Assembly (NCBI GenBank): GCA_024508725.1
Contig: JANINS010000004.1
Span: 1-64,000, forward strand
Direction: 5' to 3'
Source of the DNA: Chitinophagaceae bacterium
Lineage (GTDB): Bacteria > Bacteroidota > Bacteroidia > Chitinophagales > Chitinophagaceae
DNA length: 64,000 bases
In this document: piece by piece, positions 12,190-51,254 of the stretch
How positions within the stretch are numbered: position 1 is the stretch's first letter
Layout of the letters: each line of letters begins with the position of its first letter
Program-made: the position numbers and the translations under genes
The notes under the pieces: generated by a model
The model's input: the letters and a program-made list of their open reading frames with translations, nothing else
Databases searched by the model: none
What the model was told of the DNA's origin: nothing

Positions 12190-12223
12190 GTAGTTAGTTT
12201 TTCTTGTTGCTATTGTTGTATCA

Positions 12224-12241: not shown

Positions 12242-12279
12242 ACGATGTTCAACAGAGATTTTTAGCCGGCTACCAAAGG

Positions 12280-13017: not shown

Positions 13018-13028
13018 GGTTGATTGTA

Positions 13029-15215: not shown

Positions 15216-15235
15216 AAAGCAGCGTCGTTATTATG

Positions 15236-19769: not shown

Positions 19770-19781
19770 AAAATACTATAT

Positions 19782-21758: not shown

Positions 21759-21813
21759 TAAGAGCTGATTAGAAAACATTTTTTCTCATATGCAAGCGAT
21801 CACATTAGGTAAA

Positions 21814-21837
21814 GGAAGGATGTTTCGTCATCCTTCC
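21814..21837 (+). other. Intercistronic stem-loop between susD and xylulokinase genes
   Basis: GGAAGGATG / CATCCTTCC forms a perfect 9-bp stem with a 6-base loop (TTTCGT). The tail TGCACCTTTTAAAAAA is only partly T-rich. It may act as a partial terminator or an RNA-stability element that sets different levels for SusCD and the catabolic genes. Confidence 0.55.
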
Positions 21838-21861
21838 TGCACCTTTTAAAAAAGAAAGGAT

Positions 21862-23352: not shown

Positions 23353-23362
23353 ATTAAGAACG

Positions 23363-24691: not shown

Positions 24692-24708
24692 TCCTAAAAA
24701 GATCAGCT

Positions 24709-28762: not shown

Positions 28763-28775
28763 ATCAGAATACAGC

Positions 28776-29951
28776 ATGATGATGCATCAGACAATGCGTT
28801 GGTTTGGACCTAATGACCCGGTTGATCTATGGCATATTCGTCAGGCCGGATGTGAAGGTGTCGTTACAGCTTTGCATCATATTCCTGTGGGTGAAGTCTG
28901 GACCATCGAAGAAATTCAGGCAAGGAAAGCAATGATCGAAGCTACTGGTATGAGCTGGACAGTGATCGAAAGCCTACCGGTGAGTGAAGACATCAAAAAG
29001 CGATCAGGTAATTATATACAACACATCGATAACTATAAACAAAGTATAAGAAATGTAGCGGCTTGTGGCTTGAAGGTGATCACCTACAATTTCATGCCCA
29101 TTCTCGATTGGATGCGAACAGATGTGAACTATGAAATGCCTGATAGAAGTAAGGCACTTTACTTTGAGAAAGCAGCGTTTATTGCATTCGATCTTTTCTT
29201 ATTAAAACGCCCTGGTGCAGAAAAAGATTATAGTGAAGAGCAGATACGCAAAGCTGAAATTCGTTTTCAACGAATGTCAGGTAAAGAAAAAGAAACACTT
29301 TATCGAAACGCATTGCTAGGTTTACCAGGTAGTGAAGAACGGTTTACTGAAGAGCAGATACTTTCTGCATTAAAAACTTATGAGGAAATTGATGCAGCAA
29401 AACTAAAAGAACATCTCTTCGATTTTCTGAAAGATGTTGTTCCCGTAGCTGAAGAAGTGGGTGTAGTGATGGCTATTCATCCTGACGATCCTCCTTACCC
29501 AATATTAGGTTTGCCAAGAATTGTAAGTACTGAAAAAGACATAGATGAGGTTTTTGGTTCAGTGAATTCTCCTGCTAATGGCCTTTGCTTTTGCACAGGT
29601 TCTTTTGGTGCAAGAGCTGATAATGATCTTGTAAAGATGCTAAAGAAATTCGGCGATAGAATACACTTTTTGCATCTGCGAAACACCAAACGTGATGCAG
29701 AAGATAATTTCTATGAAGCTGATCATTTAGCTGGCGATGCAGATATGCCTTCTATTGTTAAAGAGATCGTATTGCTGCAACAAAGAAGAAATATTTCAAT
29801 ACCTATGAGGCCTGATCACGGTCACCAGATGCTTGATGATCTTTCAAAAACCACATACCCAGGGTATTCTGTAATCGGTAGGCTAAGAGGCTTGGCAGAA
29901 TTAAGAGGTCTCGAACTGGGTATCGTATCTGCTTTAAACAATAACCTATGA
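28776..29951 (+). CDS. uxuA: D-mannonate dehydratase
   Basis: 391 residues, no leader. It dehydrates D-mannonate to 2-keto-3-deoxygluconate in the glucuronate branch. Family segments are [43 protein letters not shown], the metal-ligand region [18 protein letters not shown], and [11 protein letters not shown]. The gene follows the GH3 by 13 bases and overlaps the epimerase by 4. Its presence shows that glucuronate released by GH67/GH115 is catabolised. The start may be at the second or third Met. Confidence 0.96.
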
Positions 29952-34349: not shown

Positions 34350-37300
34350 ATGAATAAAACTACACGCAAAAGCAAATTGCCTGCTCTTATCAGCAGCATA
34401 AGCACCCTTTTATTGATGATGCTGTTGTGTTCCGGAACAGTCCTGTTTGCCCAGACCTCTAAAAAAGTGGAAGGCAATGTAACAGACTCGAAAGGCGTTC
34501 CACTGGAAGGAGTTAGCATCGTTGTAAAAGGAACTTCAAACGGGGTTTCTACAAATAATAAAGGTCACTTTTCCATCACAGTACCTGTTGGCTCTGTACT
34601 CGTGTTTACCTACACTGGGATGCTGGTAAAAGAAGAAGTAGTGGATGGAAGAGATCAACTCAATATTGTTTTACAAGACAATCCAAATTCTCTCGAAAAT
34701 GTTGTCGTTGTTGGATATGGTACCCAAAAAAAAGTGAACCTTAGTGGTGCTGTTACTCAGGTATCGGGTAAAGATCTTGCCAACAGGCCGGTGGTTAATA
34801 CAACAGCAGCGCTACAAGGAGTAATGCCAGGATTAACTGTAGTAAGAGGTAGCGGAAAACCAGGTGGTGAAGGATATGGAATCAGGATCAGGGGATTTAC
34901 TTCAGCCAATACTGCAAATGCATTGGTATTGGTAGATGGTATTGAACAGGATCTTAACCTTCTTGACCCAAGTGATATCGAATCAATTTCTGTTCTAAAA
35001 GATGCTTCTGCCTCTGCAATCTACGGTGCAAGAGCTGCAGCAGGTGTAATACTTGTAACTACGAAACAAGGTGCTCCCGGTAAAACAAGAGTTACGTTAA
35101 GCAGTAATTACGGCATCAACATTACTGCAAGACAACCACAACGACTTGATTCATGGGATGAACAGGCTTTGATCGATGAGTCTCGTTTAAATGCAACCGG
35201 TGCTCCTGAGTTCAATAGAGAACAAATTGAATGGTTAATGAATCCCAATTTCGATTATCGCCCAAATCCAACACAGGACAGATGGGAATATTTCGGTAAT
35301 AATAATTGGGTGAAGGAAGGAATGGACAGGATCAATTACCAGCAAAACCATTCTATCTCTGTTAGTGGAGGAGAACAAAAATTAAACTACCTTCTTTCAA
35401 TAGCATATTTCAAGCGTGATGGTGTATTGCGTTACGGTCCGGATGATAATAACCGCAGTAACATAAAACTGAATGTGAATGCTGATGTTAGCAAATACGT
35501 TACACTAAAATTCACTACCGGTTATATCAATTCAACAGTGAATGAGAATTCATTTGGTACAGAGCAGATCATTAACAGGTTATACCGTAGCCGTACACGT
35601 CAAAGCTTGTATACTCCTCCGGAAGATATTACAGGACAGATGTACAATGGAGATCTGCAGATCAATGCAATTGATATTGAAAAGAATGCTGGTTTAGAAA
35701 GACGTGCTTACGAAACATTTACCGGCAGGCTTAACATGCAGATCAAGAATATCGTTAAAGGATTAACCTTCGATGTAATTGGCTGGAGAAACCAGAACTA
35801 TTACAACATGGAAAATAAGTCCAGGACCCTTTACTGGTATGGACGAACTGTAAATACGGTAAGGTTCAGTATCAACACACCAAATTCTTATACGCTTCAA
35901 AAGAATAAAGCATATCAGAATAATCTGCAGGGTTATGCTACTTACAACTTTAAGGTGAAACGTCACGAGTTCACGATCATGCAGGGTGCGTCTTATGAAG
36001 AATATCGTAAAGCAGAAGCAACAGCATCTGCAAAAAGTATGATCACAAACGATTTCTTCAGTCTCAACTATGGTGATCCACTTACAAAAACCAGTACTGA
36101 TAATATCGAAACATGGGCTCTTGCTTCTGCCTTCGGAAGATTGAATTACAACTTCGCAGGTAAATATTTGCTCGAAGCTTCTTATCGTTACGATGGTAGC
36201 TCAAGACTTGCACCGGATAATCGCTGGCAACTTTTCCCTTCATTTTCTGCAGCATGGAGATTGAGTGAGGAAGGATTTATCAAACAAAATCTCTGGTACT
36301 TAAGCAACCTCAAATTAAGAGCTTCGTGGGGTCAATTGGGTAATGGTTCTCCTCTTGGTTTGTATCCATACATTCCACTTCTTACCAGCGGATTAACAAC
36401 AACCAATAACCTTGTTTTTAATGATACAAGAACGCAGTATATCTATCAAAACAGGTTGGCTTCACCTGAAGTTACCTGGGAAACGGTACAGCAATCCAAC
36501 ATTGGAATCGATGTGGGATTATTAAAGAACAGGCTCACCATCTCAGCCGACTATTATGTAAAAAGAAATAAGAACATGTTGGCTGAATTGAATTTGCCTA
36601 ACATTATAGGAGTAAATACTCCATCTTATAATGTTGGTGAATTAAAGAGTTGGGGTTCTGAGATCGAGGTTAAATGGAAAGACAAGATCGGAAGCCAGTT
36701 CAGTTATCATGTAAGTGTGAACATTTCCGATAATCAGAATAAAGTAGTGAAGTACGATGGTAAAAATTCTATCGGAAGCGGTGGTGTAGTGAGTTTGCTG
36801 GAAGGATATCCACTCAACAGCGTTTGGGGTTATCAAACCAATGGTTATTTCCAAACAACTGCTGAAGTGAATGATTACAAGAATAACAACACTCCATATT
36901 TTACCAATCTAGGTCCTGGTGATGTGAAGTATGTAGATCTTGACGGTGATGGAAAGATATCAGCCGGTGGTGGTACTCCGGAAAATCCAGGTGATCTCGT
37001 TTACCTCGGTACAACAAATGCCCGTTACAATTATGGATTCGAATTAGGATTTAATTGGAAAGGATTTGATTTTTCTGCTTTCTTCCAAGGAGCATTACAA
37101 AGAAAGTTCCTCATCAGCGAAGAGACTTTGTCTCCAATGTTAGGAACGGCAGACATGCCATGGACAATTCACATGGATCATTGGACACCTAACAACCCAA
37201 ATGCATTTTTTCCAAGAATGTACCAAACAAGTGCTCACAATTTCAGACCATCTGATAAATGGGTACAGAATGGAAATTACCTGAGGTTAAAGAACATTCA

Positions 37301-37490
37301 GTTGTCGTATACAGTTCCGTTGAAGAATAAAAGATACATCAAAGGAATTCAGGTGTATGCATCAGGACAAGACTTGTGGGAGACTACAAAAGTGTTGAGT
37401 GTATTTGATCCTGAAGTAGGAAACAATGTTAGTGCAACAGCATATCCATTTTATCGTACAGTTTCTTTTGGATTCAATCTGAATTTCTAA
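34350..37490 (+). CDS. SusC/RagA-type TonB-dependent outer membrane transporter (second locus)
   Basis: About 1046 residues from the Met at 34350 (MNKTTRKSKLPAL), which gives a normal leader ending TVLFAQ; the frame extends to 34224 but those residues are not leader-like. A carboxypeptidase-D-like domain (GNVTDSKGVPLEGVSI), the SusC segment NVVVVGYGTQKKVNLSGAV, the plug (IRIRGFTSANTANALVLVDG, DASASAIYGARAAAGVIL) and a full barrel ending GFNLNF follow. It should import a glycan distinct from that of the first locus, as the two SusC proteins differ widely. SusD follows 17 bases later. Confidence 0.95.
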   Translation: MNKTTRKSKLPALISSISTLLLMMLLCSGTVLFAQTSKKVEGNVTDSKGVPLEGVSIVVKGTSNGVSTNNKGHFSITVPVGSVLVFTYTGMLVKEEVVDGRDQLNIVLQDNPNSLENVVVVGYGTQKKVNLSGAVTQVSGKDLANRPVVNTTAALQGVMPGLTVVRGSGKPGGEGYGIRIRGFTSANTANALVLVDGIEQDLNLLDPSDIESISVLKDASASAIYGARAAAGVILVTTKQGAPGKTRVTLSSNYGINITARQPQRLDSWDEQALIDESRLNATGAPEFNREQIEWLMNPNFDYRPNPTQDRWEYFGNNNWVKEGMDRINYQQNHSISVSGGEQKLNYLLSIAYFKRDGVLRYGPDDNNRSNIKLNVNADVSKYVTLKFTTGYINSTVNENSFGTEQIINRLYRSRTRQSLYTPPEDITGQMYNGDLQINAIDIEKNAGLERRAYETFTGRLNMQIKNIVKGLTFDVIGWRNQNYYNMENKSRTLYWYGRTVNTVRFSINTPNSYTLQKNKAYQNNLQGYATYNFKVKRHEFTIMQGASYEEYRKAEATASAKSMITNDFFSLNYGDPLTKTSTDNIETWALASAFGRLNYNFAGKYLLEASYRYDGSSRLAPDNRWQLFPSFSAAWRLSEEGFIKQNLWYLSNLKLRASWGQLGNGSPLGLYPYIPLLTSGLTTTNNLVFNDTRTQYIYQNRLASPEVTWETVQQSNIGIDVGLLKNRLTISADYYVKRNKNMLAELNLPNIIGVNTPSYNVGELKSWGSEIEVKWKDKIGSQFSYHVSVNISDNQNKVVKYDGKNSIGSGGVVSLLEGYPLNSVWGYQTNGYFQTTAEVNDYKNNNTPYFTNLGPGDVKYVDLDGDGKISAGGGTPENPGDLVYLGTTNARYNYGFELGFNWKGFDFSAFFQGALQRKFLISEETLSPMLGTADMPWTIHMDHWTPNNPNAFFPRMYQTSAHNFRPSDKWVQNGNYLRLKNIQLSYTVPLKNKRYIKGIQVYASGQDLWETTKVLSVFDPEVGNNVSATAYPFYRTVSFGFNLNF

Positions 37491-37507
37491 TCCTCTAATC
37501 TACAATC

Positions 37508-39163
37508 ATGAAAAAAAGATATTTATTATATATTGTTTTGATCGGAGGACTATTGTCTGCCGGTTGTAAAAAAGGGCTCGACAGGTTTCCTGAAACACAG
37601 TTCAGCGATGCTGATTACTGGAACACAGAAAGTGACCTGATCAATGCTGCCAACAGAATGTACCAGCAACTACCTGGAAACTGGATTGATAACAGGGGAG
37701 ATGACAACGTTGCACAAGGTGGAGCTAATACCATCAGCAATGGAACCTGGGTTATTCCAAATACAAGTGGCGATTGGAATAATCGGTATAACGAAATTTT
37801 TACTTCTAACAACATACTTGAAAAAGGTGTGAAAGCTCAGGTTACTGATGCCATTAAAAACAGGTATTTCGGTGAAGCAAGATTTTTCAGAGCTTATTCG
37901 TATTTGCAATTGGTGCAGAAATATGGAGATGTTCCACTCGTTTTAAAAACACTCGACATTGGCTCTCCCGAACTTTTCATGCCTCGTACGCCAAGAGCAG
38001 ATGTGATGAAAGCGATCTATGATGATCTTGATTTCGCTGCAACATGGCTACCAACACGTGCTGCTTTACCAGCAACGCAATGGGGAAGAGTAACCAAAAG
38101 TGCTGCATGGGCTTTAAAAGCCAGAGCTGCTTTATACGAAGGCACACGCCAAAAATTTCGTAATGAAGCTGGTTGGCAGCAACATTTGCAACTTGCTATC
38201 GATGCAGCTATGAATGTAATGTCACAAGGACATGCTTTGTACAGCAATTATCAAAACCTGTTCACTCGTGTTGCTGAAGGTCCGTCAAATACCGAAGCGA
38301 TCTTTGTTAAGATATATGGCGTTAGCAGTGCGAACCTGCTTTTGGGTCATAACAATTCACGTGACCTGGAGAATGGAAGGATTGCCATCACAAGAAATCT
38401 CATCAGGCAGTATTTATATACTGATGGTTTGCCAGCTTTCAATACCGACAATACTCCGGTGTCAACGCCTTCTCCTCTATTTGTAGCCGAAGGTTCAGAA
38501 ACAAGCTATAATACTATTTTCCAGAATAGAGATCCTCGTTTAACAGCAAGTGTTTTCCAGGCAAATGAATCTGCTTACAAAGGTCCATGGGTACCTACTA
38601 CTTCACTTGGTGCAAGATCAGGTTATGCTACTAAAAAAGGATTTAGTCTTGATGATTGGACATTGAATGGCGCTGCTACAACAGACAGGATTTTGATTCG
38701 TTATGCAGAAGTGTTGCTCACTTATGCTGAAGCGAAATATGAACTCAACGGAACTATTTCTGATGCTGATCTTAACCTTACCATAAATGCACTCAGAACA
38801 AGAGCTGGCATGGCTGTTAAACTCACCAATGCTTTTGTTACAACGAATAACCTGAGTATGCGTGAAGAGATACGAAGAGAAAGAACGGTAGAGCTTGCTC
38901 TTGAAGGATTTAGATACGATGATCTGATCAGGTGGAAAACTGCTGAGACAGTGTTGCCAAAGGAATTGCTGGGAGCAAAATTTGTGGCGGCAGATTGGCC
39001 AGGAACAAATCCAAACACACTTAATCTGAACGCTAATAGTATTCTTATAGCTGAACCAGCAATCACTCGTAAGTTCCAGGCAAACAGGGATTATTTATAT
39101 CCTGTGCCATTAAATGAAATTGCATTGAGCGGAGGTAACGTAACTCAGAATCCAAATTGGTAA
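37508..39163 (+). CDS. SusD/RagB glycan-binding lipoprotein (second locus)
   Basis: 551 residues, lipobox SAGCKK near residue 20. The N-terminal segment LDRFPETQFSDADYWNTESD and the C-terminal LTINALRTRAGM and ERTVELALEGFRYDDLIRW are typical SusD. It pairs with the SusC just upstream to capture glycans at the cell surface. The length is typical, unlike the longer SusD of the first locus. Confidence 0.94.
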   Translation: MKKRYLLYIVLIGGLLSAGCKKGLDRFPETQFSDADYWNTESDLINAANRMYQQLPGNWIDNRGDDNVAQGGANTISNGTWVIPNTSGDWNNRYNEIFTSNNILEKGVKAQVTDAIKNRYFGEARFFRAYSYLQLVQKYGDVPLVLKTLDIGSPELFMPRTPRADVMKAIYDDLDFAATWLPTRAALPATQWGRVTKSAAWALKARAALYEGTRQKFRNEAGWQQHLQLAIDAAMNVMSQGHALYSNYQNLFTRVAEGPSNTEAIFVKIYGVSSANLLLGHNNSRDLENGRIAITRNLIRQYLYTDGLPAFNTDNTPVSTPSPLFVAEGSETSYNTIFQNRDPRLTASVFQANESAYKGPWVPTTSLGARSGYATKKGFSLDDWTLNGAATTDRILIRYAEVLLTYAEAKYELNGTISDADLNLTINALRTRAGMAVKLTNAFVTTNNLSMREEIRRERTVELALEGFRYDDLIRWKTAETVLPKELLGAKFVAADWPGTNPNTLNLNANSILIAEPAITRKFQANRDYLYPVPLNEIALSGGNVTQNPNW

Positions 39164-39178
39164 TCTCAAACTCTACAG

Positions 39179-39697
39179 ATGAAAACATTGAAATACATAC
39201 AAGCAATAATAATAATTCTAGGTGCTGTTACATTTTTAGCAGCATGTGAGAAAAGAGCTTATAACAAAGAAGGCCTGGAAGAGTATGCTCATCATTATTA
39301 TGTAGCCTATCTGCCAAATACAAATACCGGAGTTAGCGTTCAGCGAACAGCTCCTATACAAAAATTCGCAGTGCAGTTTTATTCTGCATATACAAGAGAC
39401 TACGATGCGGTAGCTTATTATAAAGTATCTACAACAGGGATTGCGAATCCTGCTGTGATCGGACAGGATTTTAATATCGTAGATAAAAATGGAAACACCT
39501 TGCAGCCGGTAGACGGTAAGTTCAGTTTCACTTTCCCTAAAGCGATCCGTACAACTGATACGATATATGTAAAGTTGCTAAACAGTTCTGTTGCAGGCAC
39601 TCGCAAAATGGAAATTCAACTTATGGAAAATGTTGCAGACAGATACAGGGTTGATACTTTTTCAACAGCATATACAAGACCCGTAGAAATTAAATAG
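39179..39697 (+). CDS. Small hypothetical lipoprotein of the second SusCD locus
   Basis: 172 residues with a lipoprotein leader (LAACEK, Cys near 23). The mature part is predicted beta-rich, with tracts such as HYYVAYLPNTN, KFAVQFYSAYTRDYDAVAYYKV and MEIQLMENV. Its place 15 bases after SusD, before the hydrolases, is where surface glycan-binding proteins are usually coded, but it is much shorter than SusE/SusF. It may be related to the DUF1735/DUF4843 type of lipoproteins; I do not assign a family. A terminator follows. Confidence 0.75.
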   Translation: MKTLKYIQAIIIILGAVTFLAACEKRAYNKEGLEEYAHHYYVAYLPNTNTGVSVQRTAPIQKFAVQFYSAYTRDYDAVAYYKVSTTGIANPAVIGQDFNIVDKNGNTLQPVDGKFSFTFPKAIRTTDTIYVKLLNSSVAGTRKMEIQLMENVADRYRVDTFSTAYTRPVEIK

Positions 39698-39712
39698 CAA
39701 GCAATCAAACAA

Positions 39713-39745
39713 GCCGTACTGTTATCGTGCAGTGCGGCATTTTTA
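39713..39745 (+). terminator. Terminator after second SusCD-lipoprotein unit
   Basis: GCCGTACTG pairs with CAGTGCGGC (9 bp with one G-T wobble) across an 8-base loop, followed by ATTTTTATC. It should end or attenuate the SusC-SusD-lipoprotein transcript before the hydrolase genes. Confidence 0.75.
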
Positions 39746-39855
39746 TCATGTTTTTAATTAGGAATAAACGTTAGATTGAGCCAGATATCTCAATATGATG
39801 AGCCACTGAAATCATCATGAAATAGAACAATAGCGATGAATATAAATTAGAAGAT

Positions 39856-41304
39856 ATGATTCCTGTGAAAAACCTTTTTATAATAATTTTTACTGTATCA
39901 TTTGCACTGAGTTCCAGTAACTTGTCTGCACAGATCAAAAACAAAACGATCGCCGTTTATACAACAGCAAAAGACTCTGATTTTAGGTTCTTTAAATCTG
40001 ATACATTTCAATTAAGAGAGTTCAAACAACCGTTAGAAACACAGCCTACGATCTTCGTTGATCCATCCGTTACTTATCAAACCTTTATTGGTATTGGTGG
40101 GGCTATCACAGATGCTGCTGCAGAAACATTTGCCAAACTCCTGGATGAGCGACAAAATGAATTGTTGAAAGCCTATTATGATCCCGTTGATGGTATTGGT
40201 TATACCATTGCAAGAACCAACATCAATAGTTGTGATTTCTCCAGCAGTAGTTATACGTATGTTACCGATAATGATACTTCGCTTCGGTCATTCGATATAA
40301 CGCATGATCTGCAATTCAAAATCCCATTGATAAAAAAAGCACTGGCAGCTACAAAAAATAGAATGCTGTTGTATGTAAGCCCATGGAGTCCTCCGGCTTG
40401 GATGAAAGACAATAATAACATGTTGCAGGGAGGCAAACTAAAAAAAGAGTTTGCACAAAGCTGGGCAAACTATTATGTGAAGTTCATCAAAGCGTATGAG
40501 GCACAAAAGATTCCTGTTTGGGGTCTTACCGTTCAAAATGAGCCAATGGCAAAGCAACGTTGGGAATCCTGCATATTCACTGCAGAAGAGGAGAGAGATT
40601 TTATAAAGAACTATCTCGGACCAACGTTGTATAAGAACAAGTTATCTGATAAAAAATTAATTGCATGGGATCACAATAGGGATCTGATGTATCAGAGAGC
40701 AAGTGTTATTCTGAATGATCCTGGTGCTGCAAAATACGTTTGGGGCATCGGTTTTCATTGGTATGAAACATGGACTGGTGGGCCCATGCAATTCGAGAAC
40801 TTAAAACTCACTTCACAGGCTTTCCCTGGCAAAAATTTAATCTTCACCGAAGGATGCAAGGAGAAGTTTCATATCGATAGCGTAAACAATTGGGCCTTGG
40901 GTGAAAAGTATGCTTATTCCATGGTGAATGATTTTAATAATGGAACAGTAGCATGGACGGATTGGAATATTTTGTTAGATGAACATGGTGGACCTAACCA
41001 TGTTGGCAATTTTTGTTTTGCACCAATCCATGCTGATGTGCAGAACGGAAAACTCATCTATACAAATGCATATTACTATATCGGTCATTTCTCCAGATTC
41101 ATTCAGCGAAATGCGAAACGTATCAGCGTTTCTTCTAACAGGGCACAGTTGCAAACAACTGCTTTTAAAAACCCCGACGGAGGTCTTGTTGTTATCGTGT
41201 TGAATAATTCAGATAAAAAACTTCCATATAAATTATGGATCAGTGGAAATGCAACTGATGTAGTGAGCTTGCCTCATTCAATAAGCACTGTGGTGATAAA
41301 GTAG
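39856..41304 (+). CDS. GH30 glycoside hydrolase
   Basis: 482 residues with a signal peptide ending NLSAQ. A beta/alpha barrel with a side beta-domain: FIGIGGAITDAAAETFAKL, the YVSPWSPPAWMK block, acid/base Glu in LTVQNEPMAKQRWESC near 235, and nucleophile Glu in IFTEGCKE near 334. The form resembles the glucosylceramidase-like and beta-1,6-glucanase-like GH30 groups rather than the shorter GH30_8 glucuronoxylanases. Substrate cannot be fixed: beta-1,6-glucan, beta-glucosides and xylosides all occur in the family. It opens the hydrolase segment of the second locus. Confidence 0.92.
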   Translation: MIPVKNLFIIIFTVSFALSSSNLSAQIKNKTIAVYTTAKDSDFRFFKSDTFQLREFKQPLETQPTIFVDPSVTYQTFIGIGGAITDAAAETFAKLLDERQNELLKAYYDPVDGIGYTIARTNINSCDFSSSSYTYVTDNDTSLRSFDITHDLQFKIPLIKKALAATKNRMLLYVSPWSPPAWMKDNNNMLQGGKLKKEFAQSWANYYVKFIKAYEAQKIPVWGLTVQNEPMAKQRWESCIFTAEEERDFIKNYLGPTLYKNKLSDKKLIAWDHNRDLMYQRASVILNDPGAAKYVWGIGFHWYETWTGGPMQFENLKLTSQAFPGKNLIFTEGCKEKFHIDSVNNWALGEKYAYSMVNDFNNGTVAWTDWNILLDEHGGPNHVGNFCFAPIHADVQNGKLIYTNAYYYIGHFSRFIQRNAKRISVSSNRAQLQTTAFKNPDGGLVVIVLNNSDKKLPYKLWISGNATDVVSLPHSISTVVIK

Positions 41305-41328
41305 AGGTTGAAGAATAAAAATTAATTA

Positions 41329-43974: not shown

Positions 43975-43975
43975 T

Positions 43976-46438
43976 TTGATCCGGATTAATAAATACATAG
44001 TTGTTCTAGTTACTCTTTTCGCTTCATTAAACTTATACGCACAACAAACTACGAGGTTAAGTGCCAATTGGGAGTTTGTTAAACAAGATCTTGGTGGAGT
44101 TTGGGAAGCCGTTCGTCCTGTAGCAAAAGGAAGTCCTGAAAGCGTTCCGGTTTGGACAAAAGTAGAATTGCCTCATTGTGTGAATGCAACAGATGCTGTA
44201 GATCCTGATGTGCCTTATTACCAGGGGCCATCGTGGTATCGAACTCAATTGCAGGTGAGCAATCCTTACGAGGGCGGAAGAACTTTGCTTCACTTTGAAG
44301 GTGCAGGACAAAAATCTGAAGTTTATATATACACCACCAAAGTTGCTGAGCATATTGGCGGCTATGATGAATGGACAGTAGATATTACCAATGCGATAGA
44401 TTCGTTCAAAAGGTCTGATGCATTTCTAAAACAATTCGGTGGTAAAATACCTGTTTCCATTAGAACAGATAATAGCAGAGATCTGGAAATGATTCCATCC
44501 GATCTGTCTGATTTCAATTTATATGGCGGCATCTATCGTCATGTGAATCTTGTGTATGTTCCAAAACTCTCAATAGAGAAAATATTCATCACTCCACAAG
44601 TTGATGCAAAAGGAAAAGAAGCAAAGGTCAATATAAAATTCAGATGGTATAATCCATCTCATCAAACTGGTGAAACAGTGATCATAAAGCTTACAGATCC
44701 CAATGGAAAAATTCTGCTGGAGCAGGAAAAGAAATTGACTTCTTTGAATGAGCAATCTACAGTGGCTGAGTTAAAGATCAGTTCACCAAAACTTTGGTCA
44801 CCGGCTACTCCTTATTTGTATTCGCTTTCAATCTCATCGAAAAGCGCTGACGCTTATACAGCAGTGCAAAAGTTTGGTGTACGCCATTTTGAATTTATTA
44901 AGCAAGGTCCTTTTCTTCTGAATGGCGAAAGACTTTTATTGAAGGGGACACAGCGTCATGAAGATCATGCCGGAGTTGCTGCTGCACTAACAGATGAAAT
45001 GGTGAGAAATGAGTTTCGTTTGATGAAAGAAATGGGCTTAAATTTTATTCGCCTCGGTCATTTTCAAAACTCAAGACTTGCACTTGATCTTTGTGATAGT
45101 CTTGGCATTCTTGTGTGGGAAGAAATTCCCTGGTGCAGAGGTGGATTGGGTGGTGAAAAATACAGGCAACAGGCAAAGCAGATGCTGGTGAACATGATCG
45201 AACAACATTACAATCACCCATCAGTAATCATCTGGGGTTTGGGTAATGAAAACGACTGGCCAGGTGATTTTACCAGCTTCGATACATTGGCGATCCGGTC
45301 TTTTATGACGGAGCTGAACACTTTAGCTCACCAGCTTGATAGTAACAGGAAAACAGCAATTCGCAGATGTGATTTTTGTAAAGACATCGTTGATGTATAT
45401 TCTCCATCAATATGGGCTGGATGGTATCGTGGTGTTTACACAGATTATAAAGAAATATCGCAGCGAGAATTTTTAAGAGTTGATCATTTTCTGCATGCAG
45501 AGTGGGGAGGCGATAGTCATGCACATCGGTATTCTGAAAATCCGGATAACGCATTGCTAAAAGTGAAGAGATCAACTTCAGCAGATGAACGTTCCGGTGA
45601 TGCAACTTTTTATGGAGGTGCTGCAAGAATTTCCAAAGATGGAGACTGGAGTGAAAGTTATATCTGCAATCTATTCGACTGGCATCTGAAAGAACAGGAA
45701 ACAATGCCATGGTTAACAGGATCGGCTCAATGGATATTCAAAGATTTTTCTACACCGATACGTCCCGAAAATCCGGTCCCTTATGTAAATCAAAAAGGAG
45801 TATTGGAAAGAGATTTTACTAAGAAAGATGCTTACTATGTCCTCCAGTCATACTGGTCAACAAAACCAATGGTACACATCTTTGGACAGAACATGCCAGT
45901 TCGATGGGGAACCGAAGGTGAAACAAAAATGATTAAAGTATATTCTAATTGCGACGAAGCAGAGTTGTTTGTTAACGGTAAAAGTCTTGGATCAAAGAAA
46001 AGAAACAGCCAGGATTTTCCTGCCGCAGGATTAAGATGGGAACTGCCAATGTACAAAGGCAATTACAATATTCATGTTGTAGCGAAGAAAGGATCAACTA
46101 TTGTAAAAGATTCTTTGCAATTCAGCTATGAATCACAGGCCTGGGAGAAGCCTCACAAAATGATATTATCAAAAATTAAAGAGGAGAATGATGTTGTAAC
46201 TGTTGAAGTGAAATTATTCGATAGTAAAGGGATTCAATGTCTCGATGCAAATAACTGGGTGCGATTTGGTATAACGGGTGATGGAACTTTAATCGATAAC
46301 CTGGGAACATCTACTGCATCAAGACTGGTGCAATTGTATAATGGAAGAGCAATGATCAGCATCAGGAAAAATAAAGGCGTTACAGTAATGAGTGCCAGTA
46401 TCGATAATATACCTACAGCTTTTTTGAATATTGAATGA
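43976..46438 (+). CDS. GH2 glycoside hydrolase, likely beta-glucuronidase/galactosidase group
   Basis: 820 residues, TTG start one base after the previous stop; no ATG gives a leader, and TTG gives one ending LNLYAQ. GH2 domains are intact: PHCVNATDAVDPDVPYYQGP, barrel start LLKGTQRHEDHAGV, acid/base Glu in WGLGNENDWPGD near 426, and nucleophile Glu in FLHAEWGGDSH near 507. It differs from the preceding GH2, and lacks the malectin domain. With a lyase and GH88 next to it, removal of a beta-linked uronic acid or galactose is likely but unproven. It overlaps the following lyase gene by 4 bases. Confidence 0.9.
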   Translation: MIRINKYIVVLVTLFASLNLYAQQTTRLSANWEFVKQDLGGVWEAVRPVAKGSPESVPVWTKVELPHCVNATDAVDPDVPYYQGPSWYRTQLQVSNPYEGGRTLLHFEGAGQKSEVYIYTTKVAEHIGGYDEWTVDITNAIDSFKRSDAFLKQFGGKIPVSIRTDNSRDLEMIPSDLSDFNLYGGIYRHVNLVYVPKLSIEKIFITPQVDAKGKEAKVNIKFRWYNPSHQTGETVIIKLTDPNGKILLEQEKKLTSLNEQSTVAELKISSPKLWSPATPYLYSLSISSKSADAYTAVQKFGVRHFEFIKQGPFLLNGERLLLKGTQRHEDHAGVAAALTDEMVRNEFRLMKEMGLNFIRLGHFQNSRLALDLCDSLGILVWEEIPWCRGGLGGEKYRQQAKQMLVNMIEQHYNHPSVIIWGLGNENDWPGDFTSFDTLAIRSFMTELNTLAHQLDSNRKTAIRRCDFCKDIVDVYSPSIWAGWYRGVYTDYKEISQREFLRVDHFLHAEWGGDSHAHRYSENPDNALLKVKRSTSADERSGDATFYGGAARISKDGDWSESYICNLFDWHLKEQETMPWLTGSAQWIFKDFSTPIRPENPVPYVNQKGVLERDFTKKDAYYVLQSYWSTKPMVHIFGQNMPVRWGTEGETKMIKVYSNCDEAELFVNGKSLGSKKRNSQDFPAAGLRWELPMYKGNYNIHVVAKKGSTIVKDSLQFSYESQAWEKPHKMILSKIKEENDVVTVEVKLFDSKGIQCLDANNWVRFGITGDGTLIDNLGTSTASRLVQLYNGRAMISIRKNKGVTVMSASIDNIPTAFLNIE

Positions 46439-47616
46439 GCACAGCTAAAAAGATATTGATCATTTTGTGCATTAGCTTATCTGCATGTTCTTCTGCTTCT
46501 AAATTGAAGTCAGAGAAAACTTCTATTGATGATATTATCAATACCCTCAAAAAAACGGTGTTAAAGCAATCTGCTTGGGCGATGACCCAGGAGCCTGTTA
46601 CTGTCACAGCATCCTATTCAACAAGAAGTGCTGGCGGTAAGCATGATTTTTTTAGTGAAGGTGATTACTGGTGGCCAAATCCTGTTAATGCCGACAGTCC
46701 GTATATTCAAAAAGATGGATTAACCAATCCTGATAATTTTATTGCACACAGGCAGGCAATGATCCGATTCAGCAGAATTGTGGGTGCATTGGTTTCTGCC
46801 TATCGTATAACCGGCGATAAAAAATATGTCGAACATGCATTGAAACATTGCTATGCATGGTTTATTGATTCATCAACTATGATGAATCCACATTTATTGT
46901 ATGCACAGGCCATCAAAGGAAGATTTACTGGCAGAGGAATTGGCATCATCGATACAATACAATTGATTGAAGTTGTCCAGGGGTTGTTGTATTTAGAAAA
47001 TTCAGGAGCTGTGACAGATGCAGAACTTGCAGATATCCGGAAATGGTTTGAGCAATACATCTCATGGCTAACAAATCATAAGTACGGAAACGATGAAATG
47101 AATGCATTAAACAATCACGGCACTTGTTGGGTGATGCAGGTTGCAGCTTTCGCCAAATTTACAGGTAATAAACAAGTGATGAACTTCTGCCGGCAGCGTT
47201 ATAAAGAAGTGTTGCTTCCAAACCAGATGGCAGATAATGGTTCTTTTCCAAAAGAATTGCAAAGAACCAAACCTTATGGTTATTCCATTTTTAACCTTGA
47301 TGCAATGGCAACCATTTGCCAGTTATTATCTACACCAGAAGATGATCTTTGGAGCTATTCAACTTCCAAAGGACAATCAATTAAAAAAGGAATAGAATAT
47401 CTCTACCCATATATTGCAGACAAAAAAATATGGACACTCAAGCCAGACGTAATGTATTGGAAAGATTGGCCTGTTGCTCAGCCTTTCTTATTATTCGGAG
47501 GTGTAGCATATAAAAATAAAAACTGGATTGAAACATGGAAGAAACTGGATCATGATCCACAGGTTGATGAGGTGCTCAGAAATCTTCCGGTTCGAAATCC
47601 TTTAATATGGTTATAA
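46435..47616 (+). CDS. Alginate-lyase-fold polysaccharide lyase, PL38-like (putative glucuronan lyase)
   Basis: 393 residues, lipoprotein-type leader (SLSACSS). The fold is the alpha/alpha toroid of the alginate lyase superfamily: EGDYWWPNPVNADSPY, NNHGTCWVMQ near residue 223, and RTKPYGYSIFNLDAM near 280. The Asn-His pair and the later Arg/Tyr correspond to the catalytic set known in alginate lyases of this superfamily. The arrangement reminds me of PL38 endo-glucuronan lyases. It would make unsaturated glucuronyl ends, the substrate for the adjacent GH88. Alginate as substrate is possible but the context favours a glucuronate polymer. Confidence 0.8.
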   Translation: MSTAKKILIILCISLSACSSASKLKSEKTSIDDIINTLKKTVLKQSAWAMTQEPVTVTASYSTRSAGGKHDFFSEGDYWWPNPVNADSPYIQKDGLTNPDNFIAHRQAMIRFSRIVGALVSAYRITGDKKYVEHALKHCYAWFIDSSTMMNPHLLYAQAIKGRFTGRGIGIIDTIQLIEVVQGLLYLENSGAVTDAELADIRKWFEQYISWLTNHKYGNDEMNALNNHGTCWVMQVAAFAKFTGNKQVMNFCRQRYKEVLLPNQMADNGSFPKELQRTKPYGYSIFNLDAMATICQLLSTPEDDLWSYSTSKGQSIKKGIEYLYPYIADKKIWTLKPDVMYWKDWPVAQPFLLFGGVAYKNKNWIETWKKLDHDPQVDEVLRNLPVRNPLIWL

Positions 47617-47623
47617 AATTTAA

Positions 47624-48802
47624 ATGATATCAATGAAGCGTTTATCAATTGTTTGTTTTTTACTCTTAAGTGTAACATACTCATTCGCACAAAAGACTAA
47701 GGTGAAGAAGGTGATCAAAGATGCCGAGGTGCAAACAAGGCTCATGCTGCAGCAGATCCCATCAGCAAAAGAAAAGCAGGACCAGGTATCACCACGAACA
47801 TTGGAGAATGGAAAATTGAAACTGGTAAGTTCAAGAGATTGGACAAGTGGATTCTTCCCCGGTGTATTGTGGTTTTTATACGAATACACACAAGATCAGC
47901 AATGGAAAAAAGAAGCGGAACAATACACAGCTTTGATAGAAAGGGAAAAGACCAATGCAGGAACTCACGATATGGGCTTCAAGATATACTGCAGTTTTGG
48001 GAATGCATACAGACTTACGAATGATCAGAAGTATAAAGATGTTATTGTTGAATCTGCAAGAACGTTAAGTAAAAGATTCAATCCGAAAGTTGGTTTGATC
48101 AAATCGTGGGACGGCAGAAAAGAATGGAAGTATCCCGTGATCATCGATAACATGATGAACCTTGAATTATTATTTGCTGCTACAAGATTCACGGGTGATA
48201 GTTCATTTTATAAAATAGCGGTGTCTCATGCGAAAACCACAATGAAAAATCATTTCCGTCCAGACAACAGTTCTTATCATGTATTGGATTACGATACAAC
48301 AACGGGCAATGTGGTAGCAAAACATACACACCAGGGATATGCACATGAATCTGCATGGGCAAGAGGACAAGCCTGGGGTTTATACGGATTTACCATGTGC
48401 TACCGTGAAACAAAAGACACAGCTTTTCTTCACCAGGCTGAAAGAATTGCAGAATATATTTTGTCACAACCAAATCTTCCTGCCGATCTGATCCCTTATT
48501 GGGATTACAATGCTCCTGATCTGCAGACTCAGCCGAGAGATGTATCTGCTGCATCCATCACTGCAAGTGCTTTGTACGAACTAAGTACATATGGTAAGCC
48601 TAATAAAAAGTACAAAGCCGTTGCAGATAAAATTCTTTCAAATCTTACTAATAATTATAGATCTCCGTTAGGAGAAAATAAAGGCTTTATTTTGCTGCAC
48701 AGTACTGGGCACAAGCCTGCAAATTCAGAGATAGATGTTCCAATTAGTTATGCAGATTATTACTATCTCGAAGCACTGTTAAGAAGCAAAACAATGAAAT
48801 AA
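47624..48802 (+). CDS. GH88 unsaturated glucuronyl hydrolase
   Basis: 392 residues with a signal peptide ending YSFAQ. An alpha6/alpha6 barrel with the two GH88 catalytic Asp residues: THDMGF near residue 116 and IIDNMMNLELL near 174; the YAHESAWARGQAWGLYG block is also diagnostic. It removes 4,5-unsaturated glucuronate from oligosaccharides produced by a lyase. The lyase encoded 7 bases upstream supplies such ends. GH88 does not act on saturated xylan side chains, which argues that this locus has its own target. Confidence 0.94.
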   Translation: MISMKRLSIVCFLLLSVTYSFAQKTKVKKVIKDAEVQTRLMLQQIPSAKEKQDQVSPRTLENGKLKLVSSRDWTSGFFPGVLWFLYEYTQDQQWKKEAEQYTALIEREKTNAGTHDMGFKIYCSFGNAYRLTNDQKYKDVIVESARTLSKRFNPKVGLIKSWDGRKEWKYPVIIDNMMNLELLFAATRFTGDSSFYKIAVSHAKTTMKNHFRPDNSSYHVLDYDTTTGNVVAKHTHQGYAHESAWARGQAWGLYGFTMCYRETKDTAFLHQAERIAEYILSQPNLPADLIPYWDYNAPDLQTQPRDVSAASITASALYELSTYGKPNKKYKAVADKILSNLTNNYRSPLGENKGFILLHSTGHKPANSEIDVPISYADYYYLEALLRSKTMK

Positions 48803-48804
48803 AT

Positions 48805-49638
48805 ATGTCTGAGTTTAAAGATAAGGTTGTAGTTATTACCGGTGGAAGTGGTGTGTTGGGAAAAGCTTTGGCTGCTGCAATGATTCAGCAGCATGCAAAA
48901 GTTGCGATCATCGGAAGAAACAAAGCGAAAGCCGATGCTGTAGCAAAAGAGATCACAAAAGAAGGTGGAACAGCCTTGGGTGTTGCTGCAGATGTGTTGG
49001 ATATTCAAAGTTTGCGTACTGCTCATGAAGTGATCAAACGAGAACTAGGATCGGTTGATATCCTGGTCAATGGTGCCGGAGGAAATCATCCGGATGGTAC
49101 AACTTCGAAGAATTTTTTCTTTGAGGAAGATGTTGAGAATGCTGATGTAAGAACTTTTTTTGATCTCGATCCTGCAGGAGTGAAGTATGTGTTCGATCTT
49201 AATTTCCAGGGAACCTTTTTACCAACACAGGTATTTGCAAAAGATATGATCGGTAAAAAAGGTTGCAGCATCATTAATATATCATCTACCAGTGCCGGAA
49301 CACCGCTTACAAAAATCCCGGCTTATAGTGGTGCAAAGGCAGCGATCTCTAATTTCACACAATGGATGGCAGTTCATTTTGCCAAAGCCGGTATTCGTGT
49401 CAATGCGATTGCCCCGGGTTTTTTCCTTACAGAACAGAACCGGACTTTATTAACCACCGCAGAAGGACAATTAACCGAACGTGGTCAATCGATCATAACG
49501 CATACACCATTGGGCAGGTTTGGTGATCCTGATGATCTTAAAGGAACATTGCTATGGCTGTGCAGTGAAAGTTCACGATTTGTAACAGGAATCGTAGTAA
49601 ATGTTGATGGCGGATTTAATGCATACACCGGAGTATGA
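48805..49638 (+). CDS. SDR oxidoreductase, probable D-mannonate oxidoreductase (fructuronate reductase, YjmF-like)
   Basis: 277 residues, cytoplasmic. SDR elements: TGGSGVLGKALA near residue 13, NGAGGNHPDGTT near 93, catalytic Ser in NISSTSAG, YSGAK pair, and VDGGF at the end. The GGNHP insert after the NGAG motif is characteristic of the SDR-type D-mannonate oxidoreductase (Bacillus YjmF type), which reduces fructuronate to mannonate. That step feeds UxuA, encoded in the first locus. It starts 2 bases after GH88. I leave the symbol blank because the family also includes other sugar SDRs. Confidence 0.82.
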   Translation: MSEFKDKVVVITGGSGVLGKALAAAMIQQHAKVAIIGRNKAKADAVAKEITKEGGTALGVAADVLDIQSLRTAHEVIKRELGSVDILVNGAGGNHPDGTTSKNFFFEEDVENADVRTFFDLDPAGVKYVFDLNFQGTFLPTQVFAKDMIGKKGCSIINISSTSAGTPLTKIPAYSGAKAAISNFTQWMAVHFAKAGIRVNAIAPGFFLTEQNRTLLTTAEGQLTERGQSIITHTPLGRFGDPDDLKGTLLWLCSESSRFVTGIVVNVDGGFNAYTGV

Positions 49639-49760
49639 TCTTGCTGCCATGAAAACGGAACCACGAACTGAGCGTAGCAACAGACGATGCCATGTAATAC
49701 TTTGCTCACACAATAATATTAGTTGTAATAAATCGAAGTCGTGCATTTAAAAAAAATTAA

Positions 49761-51254
49761 GTGAAACAAACCTGCTTTCTTTTTATAACATTCATCTTCT
49801 GCACAATTGTTTCTGCACAATGGAGTTCAAAGTTTGTTCAACTAAATAAAAATGGTAAGCTCAGTTATGTTCCCGATGAAAAAGGAAACATCATACCTGA
49901 TTTTTCCCTGGTTGGCTATTATCATGGCAAACGAGATATTCCAAACATACCTGTTGTTAAAACCATTACTGCATCTGATACAAACAGCCAGTCTATCATT
50001 CAGTCTGCGATAGACGAAGTAGCTGCGATGCCATTAAATAAAAATGGATTCAGGGGAATGATCTTACTGAAAAAAGGGATCTATAAAATTCCCGGCACGA
50101 TAAAGCTCAATACAAGTGGAATTGTTTTACGAGGTGAGGGAAATGAAACGGTATTGATCGCTACTGGTAAAGGACAACGAAACCTGATCCAGGTTGCAGG
50201 ATCTGGTAGTATAAAAGAAGTAAAACAAAGCAGGCTTAAGATAACGGATAAATATGTTCCGGTTGGTGCGAAATCGTTCAACGTGAGTTCGTCAAAAGGG
50301 TTTAAAGTAAATGATCGCATAATCTTATTTAGACCTGGAACAAAAAAATGGATCGAAGATCTGAGGATGGACCAGATCGCAGTTCGTGATACGGGTACAA
50401 AACAATGGCAACCCGAAGAATACAATCTTACGTTTGAAAGAGTGATCACCAAAATTGAGGGCAACAGGATTTATATCGATAATCCTGTGGTAATGCCTTT
50501 AGAAGAACAATATGGAGGCGGCGAAATATTTAAGTACACATTCGATGGAAGAATAGGTGAAGTAGGAGTAGAACATTTGATGTGCAGGTCTGAATATGCA
50601 TTTGATACGGATGAAGATCATGGCTGGAATGCGATCATGTTTAACCGAATTGAAAATGGTTGGGTGAAAAATGTAACGGCTGTACATTTTGGTTATTCAT
50701 GTGTGAACCTTGGAGGTCAAGCCAAGAACATAACTGTTGATAGTTGCTATTATCTTGAACCAAAATCGCAGATCACCGGCGGAAGAAGATATTCTTTCAA
50801 CAATGATGGTCAACAAAATTTAGTGATGAACTGCTTTGCTTCGGAAGGGCGTCATGATTATGTTACCGGTGCAAGAGTGTGTGGACCGAACGTGTTCTAC
50901 AATTGCAGGTCAGAAAATGCAAAGGCTGATATTGGTCCACACCATCGCTGGGCTGTAGGTACTTTGTATGATAATATTGTTACTGATGGTGAGATCAATG
51001 TTCAGGATAGAGGTAACTGGGGTACAGGTCATGGTTGGAGTGGTGTAACACAGGTGATATGGAACTGCACAGCATCTGGTGCAGCTATTCAAAATCCATG
51101 GGTTAGTGGAAAGAACTATGTGATTGGATTAAAAGGAAAAAAACTGAATGGCCGGTTAAAGGAAAAACCTGATGGTGAATGGGAAGGTCAGAACCAGGAA
51201 GGGCTTTTACCTGCTTCTTTATACATCGTACAACTTAAGTCTAAATCTTATTAA
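49761..51254 (+). CDS. Secreted right-handed beta-helix protein of unassigned activity
   Basis: 497 residues starting at GTG directly after an in-frame TAA, leader ending IVSAQ. After a leader and a short beta region, residues 60-150 look like a Pectate_lyase_3-type start (QSIIQSAIDEVAA, GMILLKKGIYKIPGTI, LRGEGNETVLIA). Then beta-helix coils: NRIENGWVKNVTAVHFGYSCVNL, NVFYNCRSENAKADIG. A cluster near the C-terminal half (GRHDYVTGARVCGPN, GPHHRWAVGTLYDN, GTGHGWSGVTQ) is rich in His, Asp and Arg and may be an active site. It could be a lyase, hydrolase or epimerase for the second locus's glycan. I know no activity for this form. Confidence 0.75.
   Translation: MKQTCFLFITFIFCTIVSAQWSSKFVQLNKNGKLSYVPDEKGNIIPDFSLVGYYHGKRDIPNIPVVKTITASDTNSQSIIQSAIDEVAAMPLNKNGFRGMILLKKGIYKIPGTIKLNTSGIVLRGEGNETVLIATGKGQRNLIQVAGSGSIKEVKQSRLKITDKYVPVGAKSFNVSSSKGFKVNDRIILFRPGTKKWIEDLRMDQIAVRDTGTKQWQPEEYNLTFERVITKIEGNRIYIDNPVVMPLEEQYGGGEIFKYTFDGRIGEVGVEHLMCRSEYAFDTDEDHGWNAIMFNRIENGWVKNVTAVHFGYSCVNLGGQAKNITVDSCYYLEPKSQITGGRRYSFNNDGQQNLVMNCFASEGRHDYVTGARVCGPNVFYNCRSENAKADIGPHHRWAVGTLYDNIVTDGEINVQDRGNWGTGHGWSGVTQVIWNCTASGAAIQNPWVSGKNYVIGLKGKKLNGRLKEKPDGEWEGQNQEGLLPASLYIVQLKSKSY

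Follow-up and report, generated by a model that had tools for sequence, protein, structure and literature searches.

Which glycan is served by the gene set that adjoins a glucuronoxylan locus in this Chitinophagaceae bacterium? The 64,000-nucleotide stretch of DNA that was analyzed (contig JANINS010000004.1; hereafter the window) had been predicted to carry, at 34350-51254, a polysaccharide locus aimed at a glucuronic-acid polymer and not at plain xylan. We assign a polysaccharide utilization locus (PUL) comprising 34350-51254 plus a regulator at 31072-33987. With a probability of about 0.72, it serves a 4-linked β-D-glucuronic-acid-rich glycan that also bears β-linked glucose. The original prediction stands in so far as it set a glucuronic-acid locus apart from xylan use; its reading of the lyase motifs as singling out glucuronan does not.

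Organization of the locus

Ten genes lie head to tail on the plus strand, in the order SusC, SusD, lipoprotein, GH30, two GH2, PF05426 lyase, GH88, SDR and β-helix protein (Table 1). Open reading frames and profile searches bear out the predicted content and order. The gaps from SusC through SusD, the lipoprotein and GH30 to GH2a are 17, 15, 158 and 24 bases, and those from GH2a through GH2b, the lyase, GH88 and the SDR to the β-helix gene are 1, -4 (an overlap), 7, 2 and 122 bases. With such short spacing, the set looks like one operon. SusC starts at the ATG at 34350; the mechanically called frame begins at a TTG (34224). The arrangement is more than chance, as sub-blocks of the gene set recur in other genomes.

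The SusC-SusD pair, with a regulator and enzymes, makes this a SusC/D-type PUL. The functional unit probably extends leftward to include a Y_Y_Y/propeller/LuxR-type regulator, which is probably the sensor of the glucuronic-acid locus. Its orthologs (44-57% identity) accompany parts of the gene set in related loci (numbered with L) L160, L167, L170, L175, L214 and L216; the one in L167 directly precedes SusC. The original prediction included neither this regulator nor a part for the SDR in glucuronate use, and it did not present the locus as one variant of a modular family.

The 172-aa lipoprotein is a companion of this SusC/D type. Clear homologs occur in 11 others of the 195 family genomes and are adjacent to SusD in all 11. 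A Pfam search at E up to 5 gave zero matches for the window copy, and only weak, unrelated matches for four of six relatives. A single-sequence structure model (pLDDT 39) was unusable.

Table 1. Features of the glucuronic-acid locus and its upstream genes in the window
Feature	Coordinates	Strand	Evidence
UxuA, D-mannonate dehydratase	28776..29951	+	PF03786 422 bits; TIGR00695 534 bits (above cut-off)
Y_Y_Y/propeller/LuxR-type regulator	31072..33987	+	PF07495, PF07494, PF00196
SusC/RagA TonB-dependent transporter	34350..37490	+	TIGR04056 869 bits
SusD glycan-binding protein	37508..39163	+	PF07980 136 bits
172-aa lipoprotein	39179..39697	+	LAAC lipobox
GH30, glucocerebrosidase-like	39856..41304	+	PF02055 261 bits
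GH2a, C-terminal malectin-like domain	41329..43974	+	PF02836, PF00703, PF02837, PF11721; NNKG motif
GH2b	43976..46438	+	NQKG motif; 6d7j 1112 bits
PL38-type polysaccharide lyase, probable lipoprotein	46435..47616	+	PF05426 308 bits; LSAC lipobox
GH88 unsaturated glucuronyl hydrolase	47624..48802	+	3wiw 368 bits; PF07470 48 bits
UxuB-type D-mannonate oxidoreductase, SDR	48805..49638	+	NF006132 424 bits (cut-off 281)
β-helix protein	49761..51254	+	AlphaFold2 model pLDDT 86, pTM 0.88

The PL38-type lyase

The lyase covers the Alginate_lyase profile PF05426 in full (1-275 of 275). Seven PDB sequences match it at E ≤ 0.001: 3nfv, which we take to be a PL38 member (212 bits), and six of the 8bdq/9fhu kind (8bdq, 148 bits). 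As 9fhu is BoPL38, according to the available part of its source, this relates the lyase to a structurally known PL38 enzyme. N227, H228, R277 and Y283 are conserved in 130/130 alignment rows, and H228 and Y283 align with H243 and Y298, the catalytic His and Tyr of BoPL38 in the accessible portion of PMC13169297. The lyase motifs had been said to fit glucuronan-type enzymes. These catalytic residues are identical in every row, an alginate lyase included, so the motifs cannot single out glucuronan. Characterised PL38 enzymes as a group act, in the portions of the literature available, on alginate, glucuronan or glycosaminoglycans.

Two quick trees, supported by SH-aLRT only, placed the lyase and BoPL38 on opposite sides of the family (SH-aLRT 100 in the first tree, 87-92 in the second); the lyase does not fall in the clade of this alginate enzyme. 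From the first tree, flagged for long branches near 3nfv, 11/141 rows were removed as identical over a fixed stretch; sequences needed at least 240 aligned residues to enter it, and L001-L030, which are short loci, were excluded as duplicates. The second added the lyases of L219 and L224, which fall on the window lyase's side. It also contains a very distant outlier, L222:3751-4830 from Asticcacaulis, which carries the annotation alginate lyase family but probably belongs to another one; with it included, the side support is 87 and 92 instead of 100. Caulobacteraceae relatives (Asticcacaulis, from a plasmid scan) lie opposite the window lyase on long branches, and are therefore an uncertain guide to where CUL-I would fall. 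Both trees were drawn without CUL-I, TpPL38A, Aly38A, RiPL38 and Amuc_0771; among the enzymes placeable in them, none on the window lyase's branch has been assayed.

Several described systems resemble the locus in part. The alginate PUL of Bacteroides ovatus CP926, which contains BoPL38, shares with it the SusC/D type, a PL38 enzyme and the catalytic His and Tyr; unlike the window locus, it has the alginate partners PL6 and PL17, as far as its source is available. On a Bacteroides finegoldii plasmid, a PL38 enzyme that pairs with BoPL38 in the tree is accompanied by an SDR and by one protein each of the PL6 type, the heparinase II/III family and the cupin kind; in contrast to our locus, neither GH2 nor GH88 is annotated within 10 kb of it. 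The glucuronan lyases CUL-I (Brevundimonas) and TpPL38A (Trichoderma) share both the PL38 family and the proposed substrate, according to the available text of PMC13027841. Among the matches listed for open-licence PMC papers, work on PL38 dealt with alginate, with glycosaminoglycans and with these two glucuronan lyases; no described PUL was found with the same gene order or company, nor one in which this order is tied to a known substrate.

Glycoside hydrolases and hexuronate pathway

GH30 is probably a β-glucosidase on β-linked glucose, its best solved relatives being human GBA (280 bits) and 2wnw (270 bits). It is not a member of the glucuronoxylanase family NF052681 (49 bits; cut-off 650) or of NF053856, the endo-β-1,6-glucanase BT3312 family (235 bits; cut-off 700). 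Since GH30 relatives were found in 127/195 family genomes, this gene is weak evidence on its own, and our assignment depends on it for the β-glucose part.

Both GH2 enzymes are probable β-glucuronidases by motif and homology. GH2a is near full-length homologous to the solved enzymes 8dhl (616 bits) and 6d50 (609 bits), and also to 5uj6, while GH2b matches the solved β-glucuronidase 6d7j over residues 20-819. We take these four solved GH2 enzymes to come from gut bacteria. The NxK(G) motif appears as MNNKG in GH2a and VNQKG in GH2b; NEVLL/TEYG and NENDW/AEWG, read by eye, presumably hold the respective catalytic glutamates. In the parts of the sources available, NxKG marks β-hexuronidases, mainly β-glucuronidases, and NxK is shared by some β-galacturonidases. 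Neither GH2 reached the cut-off of BetGlucuronLacZ4 (NF050095; 478 and 311 bits against 950). GH88 shows near full-length homology (residues 43-388) to the solved GH88 3wiw, which is presumably a heparin-type unsaturated glucuronyl hydrolase.

The SDR, which also matches PF00106 (154 bits), would supply the UxuB step of glucuronate use. UxuA sits among the xylan genes and is probably common to both loci; in the related loci L156, L157 and L158 it adjoins UxuB and SusC/D of this type. UxaC and KduI are encoded elsewhere in the genome.

The β-helix protein

A Pfam search assigned no family to the last protein of the locus. Its structure model confirmed the parallel β-helix fold of uronan lyases and epimerases, aligning with the alginate epimerase/lyase 8ja4 (Z 26.8, rmsd 2.4, 270 aligned), the K1 capsule lyase (Z 25) and AlgE epimerases (Z 24). 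Hydrolase 1bhe (Z 24.1) has the same fold, so function cannot be read from it. Its match to NF058554, the family of the BT3328 hyaluronan lyase, is weak (40 bits; cut-off 1100), which excludes the protein as an equivalog member; this homology spans residues 38-306 and is seen in 10/11 aligned β-helix members. Residues H394, R396, R417 and H424 are invariant. We regard the protein as a candidate for a new lyase or uronan epimerase.

Gene company in related loci

Counts were made over 84 loci whose lyase falls on the window lyase's side of the tree and that have 6 kb or more of flanking DNA in both directions. Left out were 21/105 rows of this side (the window and 20 with <6 kb on a side, including L163 and L156) and 5/25 other-side rows (two PDB rows and three with short flanks, including L160). 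Identity thresholds were set for each family, among them 50% for GH2b and GH88, 55% for the β-helix protein and 60% for GH30. Because eighty loci had been picked for their similarity to the query, these frequencies do not reflect natural ones. Within the fetched stretches at these thresholds, the GH2b type is present in 50/84 loci and absent within reach in 34/84; for GH88 the figures are 43/84 and 41/84. Both are near the lyase in 38/84, and 31 of those 38 also have GH95/GH29. GH2b was further seen in 6/20 other-side rows; in each of these six, the locus contains a window-side lyase as well.

In the window, the GH2b-lyase-GH88 core comes together with GH30 and another GH2. None of the counted loci has GH30 (0/84), with L163, which has core and GH30, excluded for a short flank. 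GH30 and GH2a occur without the lyase in 4/7 fetched loci of this GH30 type (L170, L173, L214, L216); a fifth with GH2a is L163, where the lyase is also present. L170 and L214 each have another GH30 as well as a GH5-type gene. Some components are also fused into single polypeptides, as PL38-GH88 (L057, L070) and β-helix-PL38 (L195), and a GH31-PL38 fusion exists. GH88 and the β-helix gene are present without PL38 in L167. L160, an otherwise similar locus that has GH2a, GH88 and GH5 along with the lipoprotein and this SusC/D type, contains an other-side PL38, and L204 has another with GH88 nearby; tree side and locus type are therefore not one to one. A Catenovulum member of the lyase's side combines UxaC, GH2, PL38, KduI and GH88. 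The locus is thus one variant of a modular family.

Assignment of the target

The tree place of the lyase, the NxKG motif in both GH2 enzymes and a UxuB-type SDR scoring above cut-off indicate that the locus very probably targets a β-glucuronic-acid glycan, and neither alginate nor xylan. Together with GH88, these genes uphold the prediction of a glucuronic-acid locus distinct from the xylan locus. The neighbor is indeed a glucuronoxylan locus, with GH10, GH3, GH43, GH115, GH67, XylA and XylB. Pfam names the lyase Alginate_lyase, BoPL38 is an alginate lyase (available parts of PMC11381880 and PMC12448869), and PL38 and GH88 are predicted as alginate enzymes in an alginate-using Verrucomicrobiote (PMC13274419, in the portion available). 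An alginate locus is nevertheless very unlikely, given the position of the lyase off the BoPL38 side of the tree and a separate genomic cluster that encodes PL6-like proteins together with another PF05426 protein (C2:25017). Moreover, we know of no role of β-glucuronidases or UxuB on alginate. That the locus is an accessory half of the adjoining glucuronoxylan locus is suggested by their abutting position and an apparently common hexuronate pathway, with UxuA on one side and UxuB on the other. We consider this quite improbable: the locus has its own SusC/D, orthologs of its regulator travel with the glucuronic-acid gene set, GH30 is by score not of the xylanase type, and XylA, XylB, XylE and GalM gave zero matches in 110 related loci (30 of them <4.2 kb). 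The glucuronic acid of xylan, moreover, is α-linked, and is already served by the neighbor's GH115 and GH67.

A glycosaminoglycan-like target (hyaluronan, heparosan or chondroitin) is unlikely, if somewhat better founded. The PL38 enzymes RiPL38 and Amuc_0771 act on such substrates in the available parts of their sources, the β-helix protein is weakly akin to the BT3328 family, and the closest match of GH88 is 3wiw. The window locus shares only the PL38 family with these systems and is without glycosaminoglycan-type partner genes; profile searches of the ten genes turned up no family of sulfatases, of hexosaminidases or for amino sugars, and the lack of hexosaminidase and sulfatase keeps this reading low. 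A role of GH30 on glycosaminoglycans is not known to us. A polymer in which β-GlcA alternates or branches with β-Glc, with no need for a glucuronan run, is a tentative option that overlaps our assignment and does not exclude it. Such polymers occur among some bacterial exopolysaccharides and GlcA-decorated fungal β-glucans. The lyase-free pairing of GH30 with GH2a in most fetched GH30-type loci speaks for it; the GH2b-PL38-GH88 core, mostly free of GH30 elsewhere, speaks against it.

For the preferred glycan, rich in 4-linked β-D-glucuronic acid and bearing β-glucose, SusC/D and the small lipoprotein would bind and import the pieces. The PL38-type lipoprotein would cleave the uronate chain by β-elimination, possibly aided by the β-helix protein. 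GH88 would then take off the unsaturated end, the two GH2 enzymes intact β-GlcA from the other ends, and GH30 β-glucose. Glucuronic acid would pass through UxaC, UxuB and UxuA, and the unsaturated product to KduI.

Implications

A broader reading, which we regard as rather doubtful, holds that a modular family of Bacteroidota PULs, this locus included, dismantles β-1,4-glucuronan backbones that differ in their side chains. A core of GH2b, a separate PL38 clade, GH88 and sometimes also a new β-helix lyase or epimerase would be combined with GH95/GH29/GH31 for side chains with fucose, or with GH30/GH2a for those with β-glucose. Fucosylated glucuronans of Mucoromycota fungi would be the main natural target of the fucose version. 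In L167, where GH88 lacks a PL38 nearby, the β-helix protein would be the lyase. Glucuronan-type polymers occur in walls and slimes of Mucorales, where mucoran has α-linked GlcA (PMC6433966, available part). This α-linkage does not fit and makes the broader reading less likely, as β-glucuronidases would not cut mucoran GlcA. Neither PMC11497827, on the fungal necromass transcriptome (no PL38 or 'glucuron' in the available main text), nor PMC10449523, on C. pinensis fungal-wall PULs (no GH30, GH88, PL38 or 'glucuron' in the available text), supports a fungal target. No bacterial PUL for the Mucorales polymers was found among the matches listed for open-licence PMC papers. Fungal glucuronans are one candidate target for the wider family.

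SusC/D PULs with PL38 are known, and this gene combination appears to be a new form of them. If our assignment is true, the locus and its relatives would offer a ready enzyme set for direct tests of how bacteria use glucuronans from fungi or algae: a lyase from a clade with no placeable assayed member, two probable glucuronidases and a candidate new β-helix lyase. Likewise if true, the fused proteins and the swapping of side-chain enzymes around the core would make it easier to read substrates from gene company.

Results

All ten genes listed in the original prediction are present in the predicted order, on a single strand and tightly packed, in a genome of 3.88 Mb (8 contigs) that, judging by what its closest relatives are called, belongs to the Chitinophagaceae. 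The SDR scores above the NCBI cut-off as a UxuB-type D-mannonate oxidoreductase. Both GH2 proteins carry the NxKG motif; a recent subdivision of GH2 links NxK to β-hexuronidases, which are for the most part β-glucuronidases with some β-galacturonidases among them (PMC12243196), and a metagenome study relied on it to call β-glucuronidases (PMC6712278). The solved β-glucuronidase 6d7j is a near full-length relative of GH2b (1112 bits), while the closest solved relatives are 8dhl, 6d50 and 5uj6 for GH2a and 3wiw for GH88. The locus is a PUL, a known kind, in a new variant; its most unusual parts are the β-helix protein and a lyase clade in which no characterised member is placed. The MsnO8-family gene downstream starts 152 bases past the β-helix gene; no tie to the locus was seen.

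Positions of the locus, its surroundings and selected features of related loci (L, fetched loci; G, genomes of the family sample)
Feature	Coordinates	Content or remark
Lyase locus	34350-51254 (+)	SusC, SusD, lipoprotein, GH30, GH2a, GH2b, PL38-type lyase, GH88, SDR, β-helix protein
Regulator	31072-33987 (+)	Y_Y_Y/propeller/LuxR-type
Glucuronoxylan locus	1391-16261 (-), 16659-31018 (+)	GH10, GH3, GH43, GH115, GH67, esterase, XylA, XylB, XylE
Large protein	6974-9643	Esterase (SASA) and polysaccharide deacetylase domains; in glucuronoxylan locus
Luciferase-like monooxygenase	51407-52408	MsnO8 family (TIGR03558, 442 bits, over cut-off)
3112-aa protein	52702-62040	Downstream of locus; Ig_7, PKD_5, CHU_C type IX secretion domains
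PL38-GH88 fusion, single open frame	L057:9829-12039, L070:9977-12193	Two metagenome bins
β-helix-PL38 fusion, single open frame	L195:9475-12075	L195 and L022 are one genome
GH31-PL38 fusion, single open frame	L046:7763-11095, L191:9493-12753, L197:7058-10561	
GH29-GH88 fusion, single polypeptide		L040, L041, L183
β-helix-GH95 fusion, single polypeptide		L105
L167, close relative	G091:C10:242000-261900	Regulator, SusC, SusD, lipoprotein, GH5, GH2a, β-helix, GH88
L210	Own genome, C2:15000-34900	Another PF05426 protein (70 bits, in a 722-aa frame) amid PL6-like proteins

Solved structures matching the window lyase at E ≤ 0.001 were of two kinds only, 3nfv and the 8bdq/9fhu group, 9fhu being the alginate lyase BoPL38 (PMC12448869). 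The BoPL38 catalytic residues, His243 and Tyr298 (PMC13169297), correspond to His228 and Tyr283 of the window lyase and are conserved in 130/130 aligned rows. A quick tree placed the window lyase among 105 rows, separated with an SH-aLRT of 100 from 25 rows holding both solved structures. These sides (the window's side, and the other side with BoPL38) parted again in a second tree, built under a mixture model from a smaller set of rows plus three new sequences; they held 37 and 16 rows with support of 92 and 87, and a single very distant row lay between them. At 37 positions the window residue occurs in >95% of its own side and <15% of the other. Since the His/Tyr pair is kept on both sides, the motifs indicate a working PL38-type lyase but are unable to tell its substrate; the tree shows only that the window lyase is not of the BoPL38 kind. 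The predicted targeting of a glucuronic acid polymer stands, but the lyase motifs had been read too definitely as glucuronan-type. Window-side lyases at ≥52% identity occur in 33/195 family-sample genomes, counting the window's own and omitting one 31-residue match. L210, in the window's own genome, is probably a separate alginate-type locus.

Gene company was counted for 84 window-side lyases flanked on each side by ≥6 kb. Nearby were relatives of GH2b (50), GH88 (43), GH95 (41), GH31 (35), two GH29 types (41 and 30) and close β-helix relatives (9). GH2b and GH88 were both near 38/84, with GH95 or GH29 as well in 31 of the 38; by eye, the frequent layout is GH2b-GH95-GH31-PL38-GH29-GH88-GH29. 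Among 20 other-side lyases, GH95, GH29 and GH31 were near none, GH88 near two (L204, L218) and GH2b near six, each of these six loci also containing a window-side lyase. L160, outside the count for its short flank, is an exception, with an other-side PL38 in a locus otherwise resembling the window's. Two PL38 genes, one per side, were seen in L065, L066, L073, L076, L078, L083 and L218. The six of these that come from Mucilaginibacter and from a Sphingobacteriaceae bin of lichen origin carry, in this order, SusC, a ~490-aa protein in the SusD position, a second PL38 gene (PL38b), GH2b and PL38. Several of these families also occur fused (see table); a further GH31-PL38 fusion, in L084/L192, whose contigs are equally long, was counted as one. 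A stop missed in assembly could imitate a fusion; the GH31-PL38 and GH29-GH88 kinds recur across different genomes.

GH30 and GH2a lie outside the frequent layout and recur elsewhere as a separate module. GH2a is close to the window's GH30 type in 5/7 fetched loci (L163, L170, L173, L214, L216). In three of the five (L163, L170, L214) another GH30 and a GH5-type gene are present as well; in L163 the GH5-type gene encodes a GH5-CBM6 protein. Like the window, L163 unites both modules (GH30-GH30-GH5-GH2a-GH2b-β-helix-PL38-GH88). The SusC-SusD-lipoprotein trio forms a third module: clear lipoprotein homologs adjoin SusD in 11/11 cases from other family genomes, a weak twelfth match in G152 being excluded. 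These 11 stretches, two of them <8 kb, hold GH88 in seven and PL38 of either side in four, with a contig-end PL38 fragment in L159. Six fetched loci (L160, L167, L170, L175, L214, L216) contain orthologs of the regulator, which is absent from the original prediction; in L167 the ortholog immediately precedes SusC. In L156, L157 and L158, the GH2b-PL38-GH88 core, UxuB, UxuA and same-type SusC/D occur together, which unites the greater part of the uronate route at a single site.

Alignment of the β-helix protein with ten relatives showed His394, Arg396, Arg417 and His424 to be invariant. Its model is of good quality (pLDDT 86) and matched an alginate epimerase/lyase (Z 26.8), the K1 capsule lyase (Z 25) and the AlgE epimerases (Z 24), but polygalacturonases too. 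The NCBIfam BT3328 hyaluronan lyase family was found in 10/11 β-helix proteins, far under cut-off. In L167 the β-helix gene sits beside GH88, and the stretch also holds a 479-aa protein without family assignment; no PL38 was found within that fetched stretch. Our best guess is that the β-helix protein is a candidate lyase, with epimerase ranked second.

Discussion

There is good support for β-linked GlcA in the substrate. Both GH88 and the β-1,4-glucuronan activity known in PL38 (PMC13027841) agree with a run of 4-linked GlcA, and the one hint of β-glucose is GH30. For the wider family, the presence of fucosidase-type enzymes points to a GlcA glycan that is fucosylated; the window's own version of the locus has no fucosidases. 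Mucorales extracellular polysaccharides, described as consisting essentially of β-1,4-linked GlcA along with fucose, mannose and galactose (PMC6433966), would fit as the wider family's target, and mucoran, in which the same review gives GlcA as α-linked, would not. Two papers that deal with Chitinophaga using fungi (PMC11497827, PMC10449523) lend the fungal reading no support, and algal, plant or bacterial slimes are possible substrates.

The adjacent glucuronoxylan locus has two α-glucuronidase families, GH115 and GH67, close together. UxaC (53% to E. coli) and KduI (49%) are encoded elsewhere in the genome, and UxuA lies within the adjacent run of xylan genes. Going by the gene set, the two loci would supply a common route with glucuronic acid of both kinds, α-linked and β-linked.
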